The position numbers were made by a program, and so were the translations under genes. Under the pieces are notes generated by a model. It did not search any database. It had not been told where the DNA came from and saw only the letters and a list, made by a program, of their open reading frames with translations. Below are positions 3,262-10,956 of a DNA stretch of 64,000 nt, piece by piece (within the stretch, counting starts at the first letter, position 1; every line of letters starts with the position of its first letter). The DNA is from Microbacterium sulfonylureivorans (lineage in GTDB: Bacteria > Actinomycetota > Actinomycetes > Actinomycetales > Microbacteriaceae), in the NCBI RefSeq assembly GCF_003999995.1, contig NZ_RJAD01000002.1:434001-498000 (forward strand), in the 5' to 3' direction.

Positions 3262-3442
3262 GATGAGAGCTGTTGGCGCCAATGCCTGCAGGACTTCTCA
3301 AGTGTGAGATACTAGACGCTCTGACCCGTTGTCAACTGGTTCCGTGAGGTCTTCTCGGCGGAGCGAGGACTTGACAAGGGTCTTACTAGTGTCCGAAATC
3401 GACCGGGGGCGTGGGGCACGCGTTCCTGGTGAAAGGCGAAAC

Positions 3443-4851
<1,409 letters not shown>

Positions 4852-4855
<4 letters not shown>

Positions 4856-5547
4856 GTGAGGCGAACGCCGGCAAGGCGCTCACCGTATCCGTCGAGGGCT
4901 CGTCGTTCGCACGCATTCCGATCCGCACGCGTGTCGTGATGCCCGGTGACGACCTCGACGCGTTCGTACGCGAGTACGCCGAGGAGATCGTCCGGAACGG
5001 CGACCTGCTCTTCGTGACCGAGAAGATCGTCGCCATCACCCAGGGTCGGTCCTACCTCGTCGAAGACATCAAGCCCCGCAGGCTCGCGCTCTTCCTGTCC
5101 AAGTACGTCACGCGCACTCCCTACGGCATCGGCCTCGGCATGCCCGAGACGATGGAGATGGCGCTGCGCGAGTGCGGAACGATCCGCATCCTGTTCGCGT
5201 CGGCCGTCGCCGCCGTCACCAAGGCGTTCGGCCGCAAGGGCGACTTCTACCGCATCGCGGGCGACAAGGCGCGCGCGATCGACGGGCCGACGAGCGGGAC
5301 CATCCCCCCGTACAACAAGGCCGTCGTACTCGGGCCCGAGCGACCGCGCGAGGTCGCCGAGCACCTCAAGGCGCTCCTCGGGGGCGTTCCGGAGGTCGCG
5401 GTGGTCGACATCAACGACCTCGGCGGCAACATCCTCGGGTCGACGCTCGACAAGGCGGGGGAGAAGCGCCTCGTCGCGATCCTCAAGGACAACCCGCTCG
5501 GTCAGGGACACCAGTCGACACCGCTCGGAGTCGTCCGCGCGGTCTAG
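4852..5547 (+). CDS. coenzyme F420-0:L-glutamate ligase-like protein
   Basis: The 231-residue product resembles the CofE/FbiB N-terminal family, which joins glutamate to F420-0 through a GTP-dependent gamma-amide bond. The family traits seen are [29 protein letters not shown], a Gly-rich [22 protein letters not shown] stretch and [11 protein letters not shown]. The GTG start overlaps the sigma-factor stop as GTGA, so translation is probably coupled. No other F420 genes (cofC, cofD, cofGH) are in the window. The substrate is therefore uncertain, and the protein may ligate something else. Confidence 0.75.
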
Positions 5548-5619: not shown

Positions 5620-6642
5620 TCAGAAGCCGATCGCGGCGCGGTACCGGGGCTTGTGTCCGGTACGGATGCCGGTGACGCTGGGCTTGTTCTCATAGACCCC
5701 GGCGCCCCAGTTCCCTTCGACGAGGACCGGACCGTCGGGCGTGACCACGATGTCCCAGCCGACGTACTGAACCTGCGGCACGACGCGCGCGACCCGATCG
5801 ACGAACGCCTTCACCTCGTCGACCATCGGCAGCTGGAAGTCGCCGATGACGAAGCCGCTGTCCGGGTGGCGCTCGTGGACGTGTGCGTGAGAGTCGTACC
5901 CGGGTCCTACCGCGTGGCCGTTCTCGTCGAGCATCGTGTAGAAGCCGCCGAAGGTCATCTGGTCGCTGACCTCCCCGCGGCCGAACTTCTGCGCCATCGC
6001 GAGGATGTGCGTCTGCTCGCCGTCGAAGAACGCCGTGACGCGAGTGGTGTTGACGGTGCCGGGACAGACCGCGGCCAGGTCCGCGTGCTGGCGGATGACC
6101 TCTTCGATCAGGACCTCTCCGCGTTCGAGCAGGCCGCGGTGGAATGCATCCCAGTCCTCGACGTCCGCCGCGTGGTAGCGGTGCACGCCGGTGCCGGCCT
6201 GACCGATCGGCTCCTTCGTGACGATCGTGCCGTGCTCCTCGGTGAACGCGCGGACGGCTTCGGCGTTGCCCTCGTCCACGACCATCCAGTCTCGGTGGAG
6301 GTGCTCGCTGAAGACGCGGTCGAACTCGACCTTGTCGTGGAACATGTGGCGGAAGTCGGGGTGGTCGTAACGCTGCGACAGCTGGTTCGAGACCGGGTGG
6401 GTCATGTACGTCGCGCGCTCGGCCCTGGTGAGGATCGCGAAATCGTAGTCCACGTAGTCCTGGAATCCCACCTGACGGAAGCCGGCGGACCACAGCATGT
6501 CGACGAGCACGGCCGGGGTCCATTTGCCGTGCTGCTCCGAAGTCTCCTTGGCGCGGTCGACCACCGATCCGACGTCGATGCGACGGGCGCGGGCGGCGAG
6601 GTAGCGAAGGCGGGGCGCGAGGCCGAGGCCCTGAGAAGACAT
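5620..6642 (-). CDS. ATP-grasp protein of the sugar-transfer-associated type
   Basis: The 340-residue product looks like the ATP-grasp family called sugar-transfer-associated (ATPgrasp_ST). It has the nucleotide-binding segment IVTKEPIGQAGTGVHRY, an acidic hinge EVLIEEVIRQH, the segment CPGTVNTTRVTAFF and the metal-binding ending VGWDIVVTPDGPVLVEGNWGAG. Such proteins make carboxylate-amine or related ATP-dependent bonds; the substrate cannot be read from sequence. The gene is divergent from the racemase-like pair, with 47 bp between starts. That makes a shared envelope or peptidoglycan role conceivable, but this is inference. Confidence 0.75.
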   Translation of the reverse strand: MSSQGLGLAPRLRYLAARARRIDVGSVVDRAKETSEQHGKWTPAVLVDMLWSAGFRQVGFQDYVDYDFAILTRAERATYMTHPVSNQLSQRYDHPDFRHMFHDKVEFDRVFSEHLHRDWMVVDEGNAEAVRAFTEEHGTIVTKEPIGQAGTGVHRYHAADVEDWDAFHRGLLERGEVLIEEVIRQHADLAAVCPGTVNTTRVTAFFDGEQTHILAMAQKFGRGEVSDQMTFGGFYTMLDENGHAVGPGYDSHAHVHERHPDSGFVIGDFQLPMVDEVKAFVDRVARVVPQVQYVGWDIVVTPDGPVLVEGNWGAGVYENKPSVTGIRTGHKPRYRAAIGF

Positions 6643-6689: not shown

Positions 6690-7436
6690 GTGAGTTCGGC
6701 GAACCCTGGGCGCGGCGTCGCCGCGTCGGCCCCTGAGCCGTCCAGCGCTCCGGTCGCCCGCATCTCGGCATCCGCCGTCGCCCGCAACGCGTACATCGCG
6801 ATCTCGCGGGTTCCTGCGGGAACCCGGGTCGTCGCCGACCTGCGCGCCGATGCGTGGGGCCACGGGGCCCTCGCGGTCGCCGCCGAACTCCTCGCCGCGG
6901 GCGTCGACACGCTGCGCGTCGACGATGCCCCCGCTGCACACCTGCTCACGGACGCGGGCGTGTCCGGCGCCACCACCGTCGATCCGCCCGGCCTGGACTC
7001 GCTCACCCTGTTCGGCCTTCCCGGCGGTGCGCGCGACGCGACGCCCGCGATGCGCCTGAGCGGCACCGTTCTGAGTGTGAAGTCCCTCCGCCTGGGCGAG
7101 GGCGTCTCGTACGGCTACGCGTTCCGCGCCGCGACGGACACGCGCGTGGCGCTCGTTTCCGGCGGCTACGCCCAGGGAGTCGTCCGGGCGCTCGGTGGCC
7201 GCGCCCGGGTGACGATCGACGGCGTCCCGCACCCGATCGTGGGGCGCGTGGCGATGGACGTCTGCGTGGTCGACATCGGCGCGGAGCCGGTCGAACGGGG
7301 CGATGAGGCGGTCTTCTTCGGCGATCCACGGCACGACGAGCCTTCGCTCGCGGAATGGGTCGCCGCAACGGGGCTCGAGGCCGCCGAGCTCGTCACGGCC
7401 GTGGGGCTCCGCGCGACACGGGAGCACGCGGCATGA
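6690..7436 (+). CDS. truncated alanine racemase homologue lacking the PLP lysine
   Basis: The 248-residue product aligns by motif to bacterial alanine racemase but has a shortened N-terminal barrel. The position of the PLP lysine motif (K-A-N-A-Y-G-H-G in the family) reads LRADAWGHG, so Lys is replaced by Arg52. The sequence then jumps from about residue 90 to the C-terminal beta domain and omits roughly 140 barrel residues. That domain is complete: VSYGYAF with the catalytic-type Tyr141, GGYAQGVVRAL, and GRVAMDVCVVDIG with Met189-Asp190. The GTG start follows a TAGTCT box by six bases (leaderless). The stop overlaps the next gene's ATG. It cannot be an active racemase by itself; see the paired finding. 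Confidence 0.8.
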   Translation: MSSANPGRGVAASAPEPSSAPVARISASAVARNAYIAISRVPAGTRVVADLRADAWGHGALAVAAELLAAGVDTLRVDDAPAAHLLTDAGVSGATTVDPPGLDSLTLFGLPGGARDATPAMRLSGTVLSVKSLRLGEGVSYGYAFRAATDTRVALVSGGYAQGVVRALGGRARVTIDGVPHPIVGRVAMDVCVVDIGAEPVERGDEAVFFGDPRHDEPSLAEWVAATGLEAAELVTAVGLRATREHAA

Positions 7437-8479
7437 CCGGCGTCATGCGGGTCGACCTCGACCGGTTCGCGGCGAACGTGGCCCACGTCCGCCGCACGGT
7501 GGCCCCGTCCGAGCTGATGCTGGTCGTGAAGGACGACGCGTACGGGCACGGTCTCGGACCGGTCGTCCGCCGCGCGCATCGAGAGGGCGTGCGCTGGATC
7601 GGCGCCTTCGATGTCGCGACCGGGTGCCGCGTACGCGAGCTGCTCGGCGCCGACGTGCGGATCTTCTCGTGGATCGCGGCGTCCCGTGCCGAGGTCGCCG
7701 CGGCGGTCTCGGCCGACCTCGATCTCGGGGTGGGAGATCCCGCCCTGCTCGAGGACGTCGCCGCCGAGGCGCGATCGGCCGGGGCTCGCGCGCGCGTCCA
7801 CCTGAAGATCGACACGGGTCTGCACCGCAACGGCGTCCGGCCTGAGGACTGGGGCGCCTTCATCATGAGGGCGGCCGAGCTGGCGGCGGAGGGATGCCTC
7901 GACGTCGTCGGCGTCTGGAGTCACATCGCCGAGGCATCGGATCAGGACGATGACGAGGCGCGGGCGGTGTTCGACAGCGCGGTGGCAGATGCCCGCGCCG
8001 CCGGACTGTCGCCGAGCACCCTTCATCTCTCGGCCAGCGCTGCGTCCTTCGCGCGGTCGGAGTTCCGGTACGACATGGTCCGGGTGGGCGCGTTCTGCTA
8101 CGGGATCCGGCCCGCGGGCGGCCCTGGCGAGGACGCCCTGGGGGTACGGCCGGTCGCCACCCTCGAGGCGGAGGTCGCCCACGTAGCGGGCACCGAGGTC
8201 ACCATCTCGCTCGGATCGCTCGACGGCCTGCCCTCGACCCTCGGTGGCCGCGCGATGGTCGGCACTCCGGCCGGCCCACGGCGGCTGCTGGCCGTGGGCG
8301 CCGAATCCCGGGTGCAGGGCTGGGACGGCGCCGCGGTCGGCGACGTCGTCACCGTGTACGGCCCCGGGGGAGCGGGCGAATCCTCGGCCACGGATCTCGC
8401 CGAGGCGATCGGGACGATCGGCGAGGAGATCGCCGTACGCGTGTCTCCGCTCGTGCCCCGGATCTACGCGGGGGAGTGA
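7433..8479 (+). CDS. alanine racemase family protein with a degenerate C-terminal domain
   Basis: The 348-residue product has a full alanine racemase barrel: PLP lysine motif LVVKDDAYGHG (Lys33), VHLKIDTGLHRNG (Lys125, Arg132), LHLSASAA, and DMVRVGAFCYG. The C-terminal domain that normally supplies the second catalytic base to the partner subunit is altered. The VSYG tyrosine motif is replaced by VTISLGSLDGLP, and the GRVSMD motif by a sequence without Met-Asp. The ATG overlaps the previous stop as ATGA, implying coupled and perhaps stoichiometric synthesis with the preceding gene. Annotation simply as alr would probably be misleading. The amino acid used could be Ala or another peptidoglycan residue. 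Confidence 0.82.
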   Translation: MTGVMRVDLDRFAANVAHVRRTVAPSELMLVVKDDAYGHGLGPVVRRAHREGVRWIGAFDVATGCRVRELLGADVRIFSWIAASRAEVAAAVSADLDLGVGDPALLEDVAAEARSAGARARVHLKIDTGLHRNGVRPEDWGAFIMRAAELAAEGCLDVVGVWSHIAEASDQDDDEARAVFDSAVADARAAGLSPSTLHLSASAASFARSEFRYDMVRVGAFCYGIRPAGGPGEDALGVRPVATLEAEVAHVAGTEVTISLGSLDGLPSTLGGRAMVGTPAGPRRLLAVGAESRVQGWDGAAVGDVVTVYGPGGAGESSATDLAEAIGTIGEEIAVRVSPLVPRIYAGE

Positions 8480-8489
8480 CGCCTCGGCG

Positions 8490-8714
8490 TCAGTTGGTTT
8501 CGGCCAGTCGGGCCGTCTCGTCGTGCCACGAGGTCGCGATGGTGCGCAGCTTCTCCTCGTACTTGCGACCGTGGTGCGCGCAGAAGAGCAGCTCGCTGCC
8601 GTTCACCTCGGCGGCGATGTAGGCCTGCGCTCCACACGAGTCGCAGCGGTCGGCCGCGGTGAGGCGGTAGTCGAGGACGGCGCCCATCTCGGTGGGTGTC
8701 GAAAGAGTGGTCAT
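8490..8714 (-). CDS. small Zn-ribbon-like protein (DUF7455 type)
   Basis: The 74-residue product has a CDSCGAQAY motif and a downstream FCAHHGRKYEEKL motif, which together make a likely C2H-C metal site. I recognise it as a small actinobacterial protein, family DUF7455, usually found beside sigma-factor and topoisomerase genes. The ATG at 8714 is preceded by GAGGAGG, a near-perfect ribosome binding site, so upstream in-frame ATGs are not used. Function is unknown. It is convergent with the racemase gene and divergent from the topoisomerase gene. Confidence 0.8.
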   Translation of the reverse strand: MTTLSTPTEMGAVLDYRLTAADRCDSCGAQAYIAAEVNGSELLFCAHHGRKYEEKLRTIATSWHDETARLAETN

Positions 8715-8883
8715 CTCGGTGCCTCCTCGAATAGATAGAACTCCGGTGCGGGTCATGAAATACAACCACGCCTTTGTTTCGAGAATGCCGCGAACAGGTC
8801 ACATTTCGCTGAGCGCGTACGCCGGGGCCGGGCGGAGCGTGTCGGGGCCGTGCTCGAGGCCGCCCCGGATACGCTTGAGGATT

Positions 8884-10956
8884 GTGACCGCCGAGTACTC
8901 CGCCCATCATCTCCAGGTCCTCGAGGGCCTCGAAGCGGTTCGCAAGCGCCCGGGCATGTACATCGGCTCGACCGACTCCCGTGGACTCATGCACTGCCTG
9001 TGGGAGATCATCGACAACTCCGTCGACGAGGCCCTCGCGGGTCACGGCTCGCGCATCGACATCCTGCTCCACGCCGACGGCAGCGTCGAGGTCAGAGATC
9101 GTGCACGCGGCATCCCCGTCGACATCGAGCCGCGCACCGGCCTGTCGGGGGTCGAGGTCGTCTTCACGAAGCTCCACGCCGGCGGCAAGTTCGGAGGGGG
9201 CTCGTATGCCGCGTCCGGTGGTCTCCACGGTGTCGGCGCCTCCGTCGTGAACGCCCTCTCGGAGCGCCTCGACGTCGAAGTCGACCGCGGCGGCAAGACC
9301 TGGGCGATGTCGTTCCATCGCGGAGAGCCGGGCGTGTTCGCGAACGGATCTCCGTCGTCGACCTTCACGCCCTTCGAGAAGAGCTCCGAGCTGCGCGTCG
9401 CCGGCCGGGCCGCCAAGGGCGTCACCGGAACCCGCATCCGCTACTGGGCGGACCAGCAGATCTTCACGAAGGATGCCGCGTTCAACCTGCAGGAGCTCGA
9501 GCAGCGCGCGCGCCAGACCGCGTTCCTCGTGCCGGGCCTCGAGATCGTCATCCGCGACGAGCGCACCGAGGAGCACGTCGAGACGAGCTTCCGCTTCGAC
9601 GGCGGGATCTCGGAGTTCGCCGACTTCCTCGCGCCCGACGCACCGATCACCGACACGTGGCGGCTCACCGGGACGGGGACGTTCACCGAGACCGTGCCGG
9701 TGCTTCAGCCGACGGGCGCGATGGTGCCGACCGAACTCGAGCGCGTGTGCGAGGTCGACGTGGCTGTGCGCTGGGGCACGGGGTACGAGACCACTTCCCG
9801 GTCGTTCGTCAACATCATCTCGACGCCGAAGGGCGGCACGCACCAGCAGGGTTTCGAGGCCGGCCTCATGAAGGTGCTCCGCACCCAGGTCGAGCAGAAC
9901 GCGCGCCGTCTCAAGTTCGGCAGCAGTGACAAGCTCGAGAAGGACGACATCCTCGCCGGCCTCTCGGCGGTGCTCACGGTGCGCCTGCCCGAGCCGCAGT
10001 TCGAGGGGCAGACGAAGGAGGTGCTCGGCACCCCGGCCGTCCGACAGATCGTCGCGAACGTCGTCACCCGCGAGCTCACTGCCCGCTTCACGTCACCCAA
10101 GCGCGACGACAAGGCGCAGACCTCACTGCTGCTCGACAAGGTCGTGTCGGAGATGAAGGCGCGTGTCTCCGCGCGTGCGCACAAGGAGACCCAGCGCCGC
10201 AAGAACGCGCTCGAGTCCTCCTCTCTCCCCGCGAAGCTCGCCGACTGCCGAACCAACGAGGTCGAGGCATCCGAACTGTTCATCGTCGAGGGCGACTCGG
10301 CACTCGGCACGGCCAAGCTCGCGCGCAACAGCGAGTACCAGGCGCTCCTCCCGATCCGCGGCAAGATCCTCAACGTCCAGAAGGCGTCGATCAGCGACAT
10401 GCTGTCGAACGCAGAGTGCGCCGCGATCATCCAGGTGATCGGCGCCGGCTCGGGGCGATCGTTCGATCTGGATGCTGCGCGCTACGGCAAGATCATCCTG
10501 ATGAGCGACGCCGACGTCGACGGTGCGCACATCCGCACCCTGCTGCTGACGCTCTTCTTCCGATACATGCGCCCGCTCATCGACGACGGTCGCGTGTACG
10601 CGGCCGTGCCGCCGCTTCACCGCGTCGTCGTCATGAATCCGGGAACCAAGCCCAACGAGACGATCTACACGTACTCCGAACAGGAGCTCCATACGCTCCT
10701 CACCAAGCTCACGAAGTCCGGCAAGCGCTGGCAGGAGCCTGTGCAGCGCTACAAGGGCCTCGGCGAGATGGACGCCGACCAGCTCGCGACGACGACGATG
10801 GATCGCGCGGGTCGCACCCTTCGCCGGGTGCGGATGACGGATGCCGAGGCGGCGGCATCGGTGTTCGAGCTGCTCATGGGCAACGACGTCGCTCCGCGCA
10901 AGGAGTTCATCATCGACTCGAGCGACCGCCTCGCGCGCGAGCGCATCGACGCCTGA
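8884..10956 (+). CDS. parE: type IIA topoisomerase subunit B (topoisomerase IV-like)
   Basis: This is the ATPase/TOPRIM subunit of a type IIA topoisomerase, 690 residues. The GHKL ATPase features are [11 protein letters not shown], the glycine loop [15 protein letters not shown] and a transducer domain. The TOPRIM features are [20 protein letters not shown] and [11 protein letters not shown]. The GTG at 8884 is chosen because [27 protein letters not shown]-type N-termini start here, and because a TACGCT box lies eight bases upstream. The partner A subunit gene is immediately convergent. Chromosomal gyrB normally lies near dnaA, which is not here, so the second enzyme (ParE) is the likelier identity. 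Confidence 0.88.
   Translation: [690 protein letters not shown]

Follow-up and report, generated by a model that had tools for sequence, protein, structure and literature searches.

Genes A and B and their complementary losses

The subject of this analysis is a 64,000-nucleotide stretch of the Microbacterium sulfonylureivorans genome (contig NZ_RJAD01000002.1, positions 434,001 to 498,000; hereafter the window) and two adjoining genes in it, A and B, both related to the pyridoxal 5'-phosphate (PLP) enzyme alanine racemase. Gene A (6690..7436, + strand; 248 amino acids, GTG start) encodes the alanine-racemase C-terminal domain preceded by the remnant of a barrel, and gene B (7433..8479, + strand; 348 amino acids, ATG start) encodes a complete barrel followed by a C-terminal domain without the VSYG loop. 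The stop codon of A and the start codon of B share an ATGA overlap, read from the sequence at 7433..7436 (+ strand), from which we infer that translation of the two genes is coupled; overlaps in relatives, with start codons picked by script, are likewise short. Pfam domains divide the enzyme between the two proteins, A covering PF00842 (C-terminal domain) at 1-126 of 127 positions (108.9 bits) and PF01168 (barrel) at just 1-70 of 220, and B the reverse, with 1-220 of 220 for PF01168 (177 bits) and just 76-127 of 127 for PF00842. The best curated family for both is TIGR00492 (alr), with scores of 115.9 (A) and 134.6 bits (B) that fall below its cut-off of 168.

An earlier description made from the letters alone, the sequence-only reading, had reported two coupled racemase-related genes, and the open reading frames (ORFs), the overlap and the Pfam matches bear this out. 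The residues it named are also correct. In A, Arg52 (6843-6845) occupies the position of the PLP lysine, Tyr141 (7110-7112) lies in the motif VSYGYAF and Met189-Asp190 (7254-7259) in the motif GRVAMD, and in B the barrel holds the PLP lysine Lys33 (7529-7531) together with Lys125 and Arg132. Glu331 of B (8423-8425) stands at the position of Tyr354 of alanine racemase. Between the first barrel strand and the tyrosine A has about 116 residues, versus about 252 in the complete Alr of the same genome, a loss of about 136 by sequence count that matches the earlier estimate of about 140. An AlphaFold model of B from 31 aligned sequences (mean predicted local distance difference test score, pLDDT, 95.4; predicted template modelling score, pTM, 0.92) has a barrel and then a C-terminal strand domain, in which the site of the canonical VSYG loop is taken by strand 242-252, a short turn and strand 255-258.

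Separate searches with A and with B covered 299 Microbacteriaceae genomes, and loci were fetched from part of these, mostly where A-like and B-like matches adjoined; counts are lower bounds from a non-random sample. Residues in the alignments carry alanine-racemase numbering. In the 58 aligned pairs, comprising the window and 57 relatives, B invariably has Lys39, Tyr43, Lys129, Arg136, His166 and Arg219, a gap in the column of Tyr265 (the VSYG tyrosine) and an acidic residue in that of Tyr354 (Glu 35, Asp 23). The PLP lysine at position 39 is present in none of the 58 A proteins (Arg 42, Asp 5, Ala 4, Ser 3, Thr 3, gap 1), nor is a tyrosine at position 354, and all 58 keep Tyr265 and Met312, with Asp (47) or Asn (11) at position 313. 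The alignments and the model of B agree that the catalytic tyrosine loop is found on A alone. In every one of the 58 pairs A stands directly 5' of B in the same orientation, these loci having been picked for A and B side by side. An assembly break or frameshift of a single alr was considered and ruled out, as the barrel of B is complete, A owns a barrel remnant and 58 pairs are alike.

Counting the window's own genome, the search for co-conservation found the pair in at least 76 of 299 genomes and, by our tally, in 28 of 85 genera. Among matches listed, at least 69 of 119 Microbacterium genomes have an A-like match, and five low-ranking ones that were fetched were confirmed. The best 80 of at least 588 named loci found with the B profile comprise 74 of the split kind and 6 canonical alr; within these 80 the nearest named relative of the window's B is from M. 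flavescens (78% identity). Of the 74 split loci, 72 have A as an ORF of its own, one (L256) has it fused and one (L220) has it off the contig. A few loci are damaged, the contig end truncating A in L164 and the end of B being broken or cut in L247 and L262. Outside the family, a search of the order (297 genomes, 23 of them Microbacteriaceae) gave no A-like gene among the matches listed; the matches from other families reaching furthest N-terminal, in genomes G310 and G335, proved to be canonical alr. In the A proteins of L123, L125, L126, L128 and L129 the barrel remnant is mostly gone, with 86-117 residues before the tyrosine by open-frame count.

Gene A is under purifying selection. Ratios of nonsynonymous to synonymous substitution (dN/dS), taken from whichever of two estimators ran for the given comparison, were 0.07, 0.09, 0.10, 0.12, 0.17 and 0.20 in six closer comparisons within Microbacterium (dS > 2 in two of them) and about 0.4 in three more distant comparisons, where synonymous changes are near saturation.

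In alanine racemase, according to passages in PMC3485190 and PMC4517790, Lys39 and Tyr265' of an active site are contributed by different subunits, and the C-terminal Met and Asp likewise come from the other subunit. A and B would be the subunits of one fold-type III PLP racemase, functional solely as an A-B heterodimer, in which the PLP barrel (Lys33, Lys125, Arg132 and the His and Arg) comes from B, and Tyr141 as second base and the Met189-Asp190 loop reach in from A over the dimer interface. Each heterodimer would hold one complete composite site and one dead site; an A-A dimer would have no PLP lysine and a B-B dimer no tyrosine. The strongest support for a heterodimer, indirect as it is, lies in the fact that A retains the trans-acting residues and loses the cis-acting ones, with B doing the reverse, and since this complementary loss is seen in 58 of 58 aligned pairs it is not due to chance. 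We consider it quite probable that A-B is a heterodimeric racemase.

Fusions, full-length relatives and phylogeny

In locus L091 A and B are joined in a single open frame of 832 codons, giving 663 amino acids from a plausible GTG and a linker of about 55-60 residues, and A-B fusions occur in a second genus (L170/L256 and L335). Twelve loci have an A with a near full-length barrel stripped of its catalytic residues (L094, L096, L101, L103, L131, L152, L153, L154, L160, L161, L170 and L171). Fourteen loci carry two complete racemases in tandem. Writing the site as a string of Lys39, Lys129, Arg136, His166, Arg219, Tyr265, Met312, Asp313 and Tyr354, seven of these tandems read KKRHRYMDY then KKRHRYMDD (Tyr354 then Asp354) and the other seven K[CV]RHRYMNY then K[GSTN]RHRYMDE (Tyr354 then Glu354). 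The pair would have originated from a tandem of two complete racemases followed by complementary loss, if evolution ran in the direction we infer. In the tandems L121, L151, L155-L158 and L180 both complete racemases are without Lys129 and differ at positions 313 and 354; perhaps these represent an earlier heterodimer stage with two unlike sites.

Barrel trees grouped B and the complete Asp354 or Glu354 enzymes apart from canonical alr (FastTree support 0.943; Shimodaira-Hasegawa-like approximate likelihood ratio test, SH-aLRT, 97.9). A single clade of all split B was rejected at the 5% level by the approximately unbiased test (p-AU 0.029), a modest result obtained with a simple model and with groups named after the first tree; a clade of B with the Glu354 tandems, excluding the Asp354 tandems, was compatible (p-AU 0.225). 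The rejection implies that the split, or its reversal, happened on more than one occasion. As for the full-length Asp354 and Glu354 tandems, they may be ancestral, or recombination with a neighbouring alr may have given them back the tyrosine loop.

Conservation, fusions, intermediates, phylogeny and gene context together lend indirect support to two proposals of the sequence-only reading, that a complete site would exist just in the A-B heterodimer, one per dimer, and that the pair constitutes a distinct racemase class. That reading made no mention of the Glu or Asp at position 354, the fusions, the tandem full-length relatives, or the neighbouring murT and Cys-less gatD or CofE-like and ATP-grasp genes described below.

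Substrate, cell wall and the sigA-parE cluster

The nature of residue 354 bears on the substrate. In lysine racemase, a passage in PMC3485190 has Thr391 at the place of Tyr354, docked to the side-chain amine of D-Lys. In the T. tengcongensis alanine racemase, passages in PMC4517790 state that the intermediate directs its side chain toward the residue at the Tyr354 position and that Asp or Glu there reduces Ala racemisation. With Glu or Asp at this position in the side-chain pocket, the substrate of B is most likely a diamino acid, namely L-ornithine (L-Orn), L-Lys or L-diaminobutyrate (L-Dab), and its product would be the corresponding D-form for the cross-bridge of B2-type peptidoglycan. A diamino-acid substrate serving B2-type bridges seems to us somewhat probable.

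Published wall compositions can be set beside these residues. Tables list D-Lys for Frigoribacterium and D-Orn for Homoserinimonas (PMC7033078) and L-DAB with D-Orn for Agreia (PMC5945732). Passages in PMC10757982 give the Microbacterium wall as containing D-Orn, L-Lys or DAB according to species, with D-Orn in M. galbinum and, M. enclense excepted, in the M. testaceum clade, and a passage in PMC4156110 gives D-Ala-D-Dab for Rhodoluna lacicola. Records named Frigoribacterium, Homoserinimonas, Agreia, M. galbinum and the M. testaceum clade have B with Glu, and a Rhodoluna metagenome-assembled genome has B with Asp. Presence of the pair and the wall D-diamino acid agree in six named taxa, mostly at genus level; M. 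enclense disagrees and Cryobacterium agrees poorly. We put the probability of the whole reading, that A and B form an obligate heterodimer with a composite site making the D-Orn, D-Lys or D-Dab of B2-type peptidoglycan, at roughly two in three (about 0.68). The link to B-type peptidoglycan suggested by the sequence-only reading gains support, gene context being among the evidence.

The pair is not needed for D-Ala, as complete alr genes coexist with it. The window's genome (3.79 Mb) has a canonical complete alr with the site string KKRHRYMDY, and a complete alr with the same string was found in nine of nine other pair genomes for which a separate alr was fetched. A second complete racemase of the window's genome, whose Lys129 and Tyr354 positions hold Glu and Gln, respectively (L002, contig C3 near 317524), lies beside genes that we take to encode VanY-like and D-Ala-D-Ala-ligase-like proteins, presumably a VanT-like set.

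In the window the pair is embedded in a cluster whose conserved left border is a sigma factor gene (3329..4855, + strand; ORF and layout), a primary sigma factor that from its sequence we take to be sigA. It is followed by a gene for a CofE-like (F420-0:glutamate-ligase-like) protein (4852..5547, + strand; partial match to PF01996) and one for an ATP-grasp ligase-like protein (5620..6642, - strand; PF14397). Beyond B come a DUF7455 gene (8490..8765, - strand) and the conserved right border, a parE/gyrB-type topoisomerase subunit B gene (8692..10956, + strand) whose true start is further in. Most loci of sufficient length have the pair between sigA and parE, and in many loci of the Asp354 kind it is inverted, converging on gatD. 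Neither sigA nor parE was found within the fetched stretch of the tandem-racemase loci (12 of 14 examined for layout).

Among 133 distinct pair loci (15 duplicates dropped), murT-gatD is present in 62, a CofE-like gene in 64, both in one and neither in six. The CofE-like gene is mostly accompanied by an ATP-grasp gene, and in the window these two occupy the place that murT-gatD has in other genera; MurT_C had no match in the window's genome. One locus, L160 (genome G225), contains two different split pairs with a CofE-like and two ATP-grasp genes. A CofE-like gene was found in 22 of 22 chosen Microbacterium genomes, four with the pair and 18 without it, the latter chosen for having just one A-profile match. 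All 18 lack both A and B but retain the rest of the cluster, with sigA, the CofE-like gene, DUF7455, parE and either one or two ATP-grasp genes. The A-B pair behaves as a module gained or lost within a constant cluster, which is what one would predict for a cluster that serves B-type bridges and has use for A-B solely when the bridge residue is in the D-form.

The usual reaction of MurT-GatD is amidation of the D-Glu alpha-carboxyl of lipid II, the carboxyl at which a B-type bridge starts. The MurT and GatD relatives beside the pairs score below the NCBIfam cut-offs. Positions of the GatD Cys and His, which we take to be catalytic, were placed by alignment to S. aureus GatD (5n9m). The Cys is found in none of 72 GatD ORFs of pair loci such as L077, L079, L105, L117 and L131 (0 of 63 distinct sequences), its position being held by Gly (51), Ala (17), Ser (2) or Thr (2), and 25 of the 72 retain the His. 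The Cys is also missing in 14 of 14 tandem-racemase genomes (L285-L305 among the GatD loci examined) and present in three of three GatD of other families and in a second GatD copy of G163 (L312). A GatD without the catalytic Cys cannot free ammonia from Gln by the known route, and the Microbacteriaceae MurT-GatD has likely been repurposed. Ligation of the D-diamino acid probably falls to the CofE-like and ATP-grasp proteins in the window and, in other genera, to MurT paired with a glutaminase-dead GatD. More tentatively, at a little under even odds, the single sigA-parE locus may be a dedicated B-type cross-bridge pathway, in which A-B makes the D-diamino acid (Orn or Lys with Glu354, Dab with Asp354) and MurT with dead GatD, or the CofE-like/ATP-grasp module replacing it, ligates the amine of that residue to the D-Glu alpha-carboxyl instead of ammonia from GatD, the split having arisen or been undone more than once.

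Alternative readings and known systems

Several observations weigh against the interpretation of A-B as a heterodimeric source of D-diamino acids. The B of L123 has an unrelated tyrosine in the Tyr265 column of a second, profile-based alignment. Six of the 133 loci have neither neighbour module (L084, L153, L200, L207, L220 and L230); L200 and L207 show an ATP-grasp gene, L220 is cut and L153 (G053) has sigA directly adjoining A, and L084, L153 and L230 show no obvious truncation at that place. Cys-less GatD occurs in seven of eight chosen pair-less Microbacteriaceae having GatD, the eighth (L308) keeping its Cys, so a dead GatD does not by itself require the pair. With regard to wall chemistry, a passage in PMC10757982 reports L-Lys for M. 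enclense, yet the record of that name (L203) carries the pair, and the residue in the record of Cryobacterium sp. BB307 (L258) is Glu and not Asp, the genus being given as DAB in PMC7033078. The matches to wall chemistry are for the most part made at genus level and not within one strain.

An obligate heterodimer could instead act on Ala, Ser or another small amino acid, the Glu or Asp being structural and the neighbourhood a gathering place of cell-wall genes. Such a substrate would fit alr being the best curated match of both proteins, if below cut-off, and the two chains together holding every catalytic residue of alanine racemase. We nevertheless think it unlikely, because the same genomes have a canonical complete alr and all 58 B proteins are acidic at position 354, where Asp or Glu lowered Ala racemisation in the one Alr reported in part of PMC4517790. 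A different division of labour, with B acting alone as a homodimer or monomer, through another base or in another PLP reaction, and A serving to regulate or chaperone either B or the complete Alr, is rather improbable. The model predicts a well-folded B even in the absence of A, and trypanosomatid prozymes, dead paralogues that activate their partners, offer a precedent (passages in PMC5201418 and PMC3663545). A regulator, however, would have no need of exactly the trans-acting Tyr, Met and Asp or Asn that A retains in 58 of 58 cases while losing the cis-acting residues; moreover, full-length relatives of B keep the tyrosine in their own chain, and two genera have the genes fused.

The sequence-only reading had itself counted a complete alr in the genome together with decay of one of the genes in relatives as contrary evidence. 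Complete alr genes are indeed present, two in the window's genome and one in each of nine others. Decay of A or B beside its partner was not seen, either in the six dN/dS comparisons of A or in the 18 pair-less genomes, which are without both. That A and B are a duplicate in decay with no enzymatic role, as the missing parts of both chains and the presence of complete alr genes could suggest, is very improbable given the low dN/dS of A in the six closer comparisons and active-site residues invariant in 58 pairs, with the pair spread over 28 genera.

Our literature search covered alr heterodimers, B-type peptidoglycan with racemase or D-Orn, ornithine racemase, and MurT/GatD in Microbacteriaceae; in the parts of the listed papers it reached, with subscription journals mostly outside its coverage, the pair is not described and no gene is named as the source of D-Orn, D-Lys or D-Dab in B-type peptidoglycan. 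B-type peptidoglycan has been a taxonomic trait for decades, and if the heterodimer reading is true A-B is a candidate for the missing step that supplies its D-ornithine, D-lysine or D-diaminobutyrate, pointing also toward a repurposed MurT-GatD. A-B would then offer a clean example from nature of a homodimer with shared sites turned into an obligate one-site heterodimer, with likely ancestors (tandems), intermediates (dead full barrels) and end states (short A, fusions) coexisting in one family.

Compared with known systems, A-B shares with Alr (fold type III PLP; PF01168 and PF00842, TIGR00492) the fold, the PLP lysine, the Arg/His network and, as proposed, a second-base tyrosine from the other subunit. 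Alr is a homodimer with two equal sites, whereas A-B would place the halves of the site on two proteins, with one site per dimer and Tyr354 changed to Glu or Asp. The lysine racemase Lyr and the broad-specificity racemase Bar (4dza, 4dyj) likewise combine the Alr fold with a changed Tyr354 position and take basic amino acids, as A-B probably would, but are homodimers with Thr or Ala where B has Glu or Asp; in these enzymes, a passage in PMC3485190 states, Asn stands in for the carbamylated Lys129, which B keeps. The lipid II isoglutaminyl synthase MurT-GatD has relatives beside the pairs, yet with the catalytic Cys of GatD in 0 of 72. A parallel in organization is offered by the trypanosomatid S-adenosylmethionine decarboxylase (AdoMetDC)-prozyme and deoxyhypusine synthase (DHS) pairs, which as described in parts of the literature consist of two paralogues, one catalytically dead, that are needed together. 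There the dead paralogue activates its partner; A would instead supply one of the two catalytic bases.

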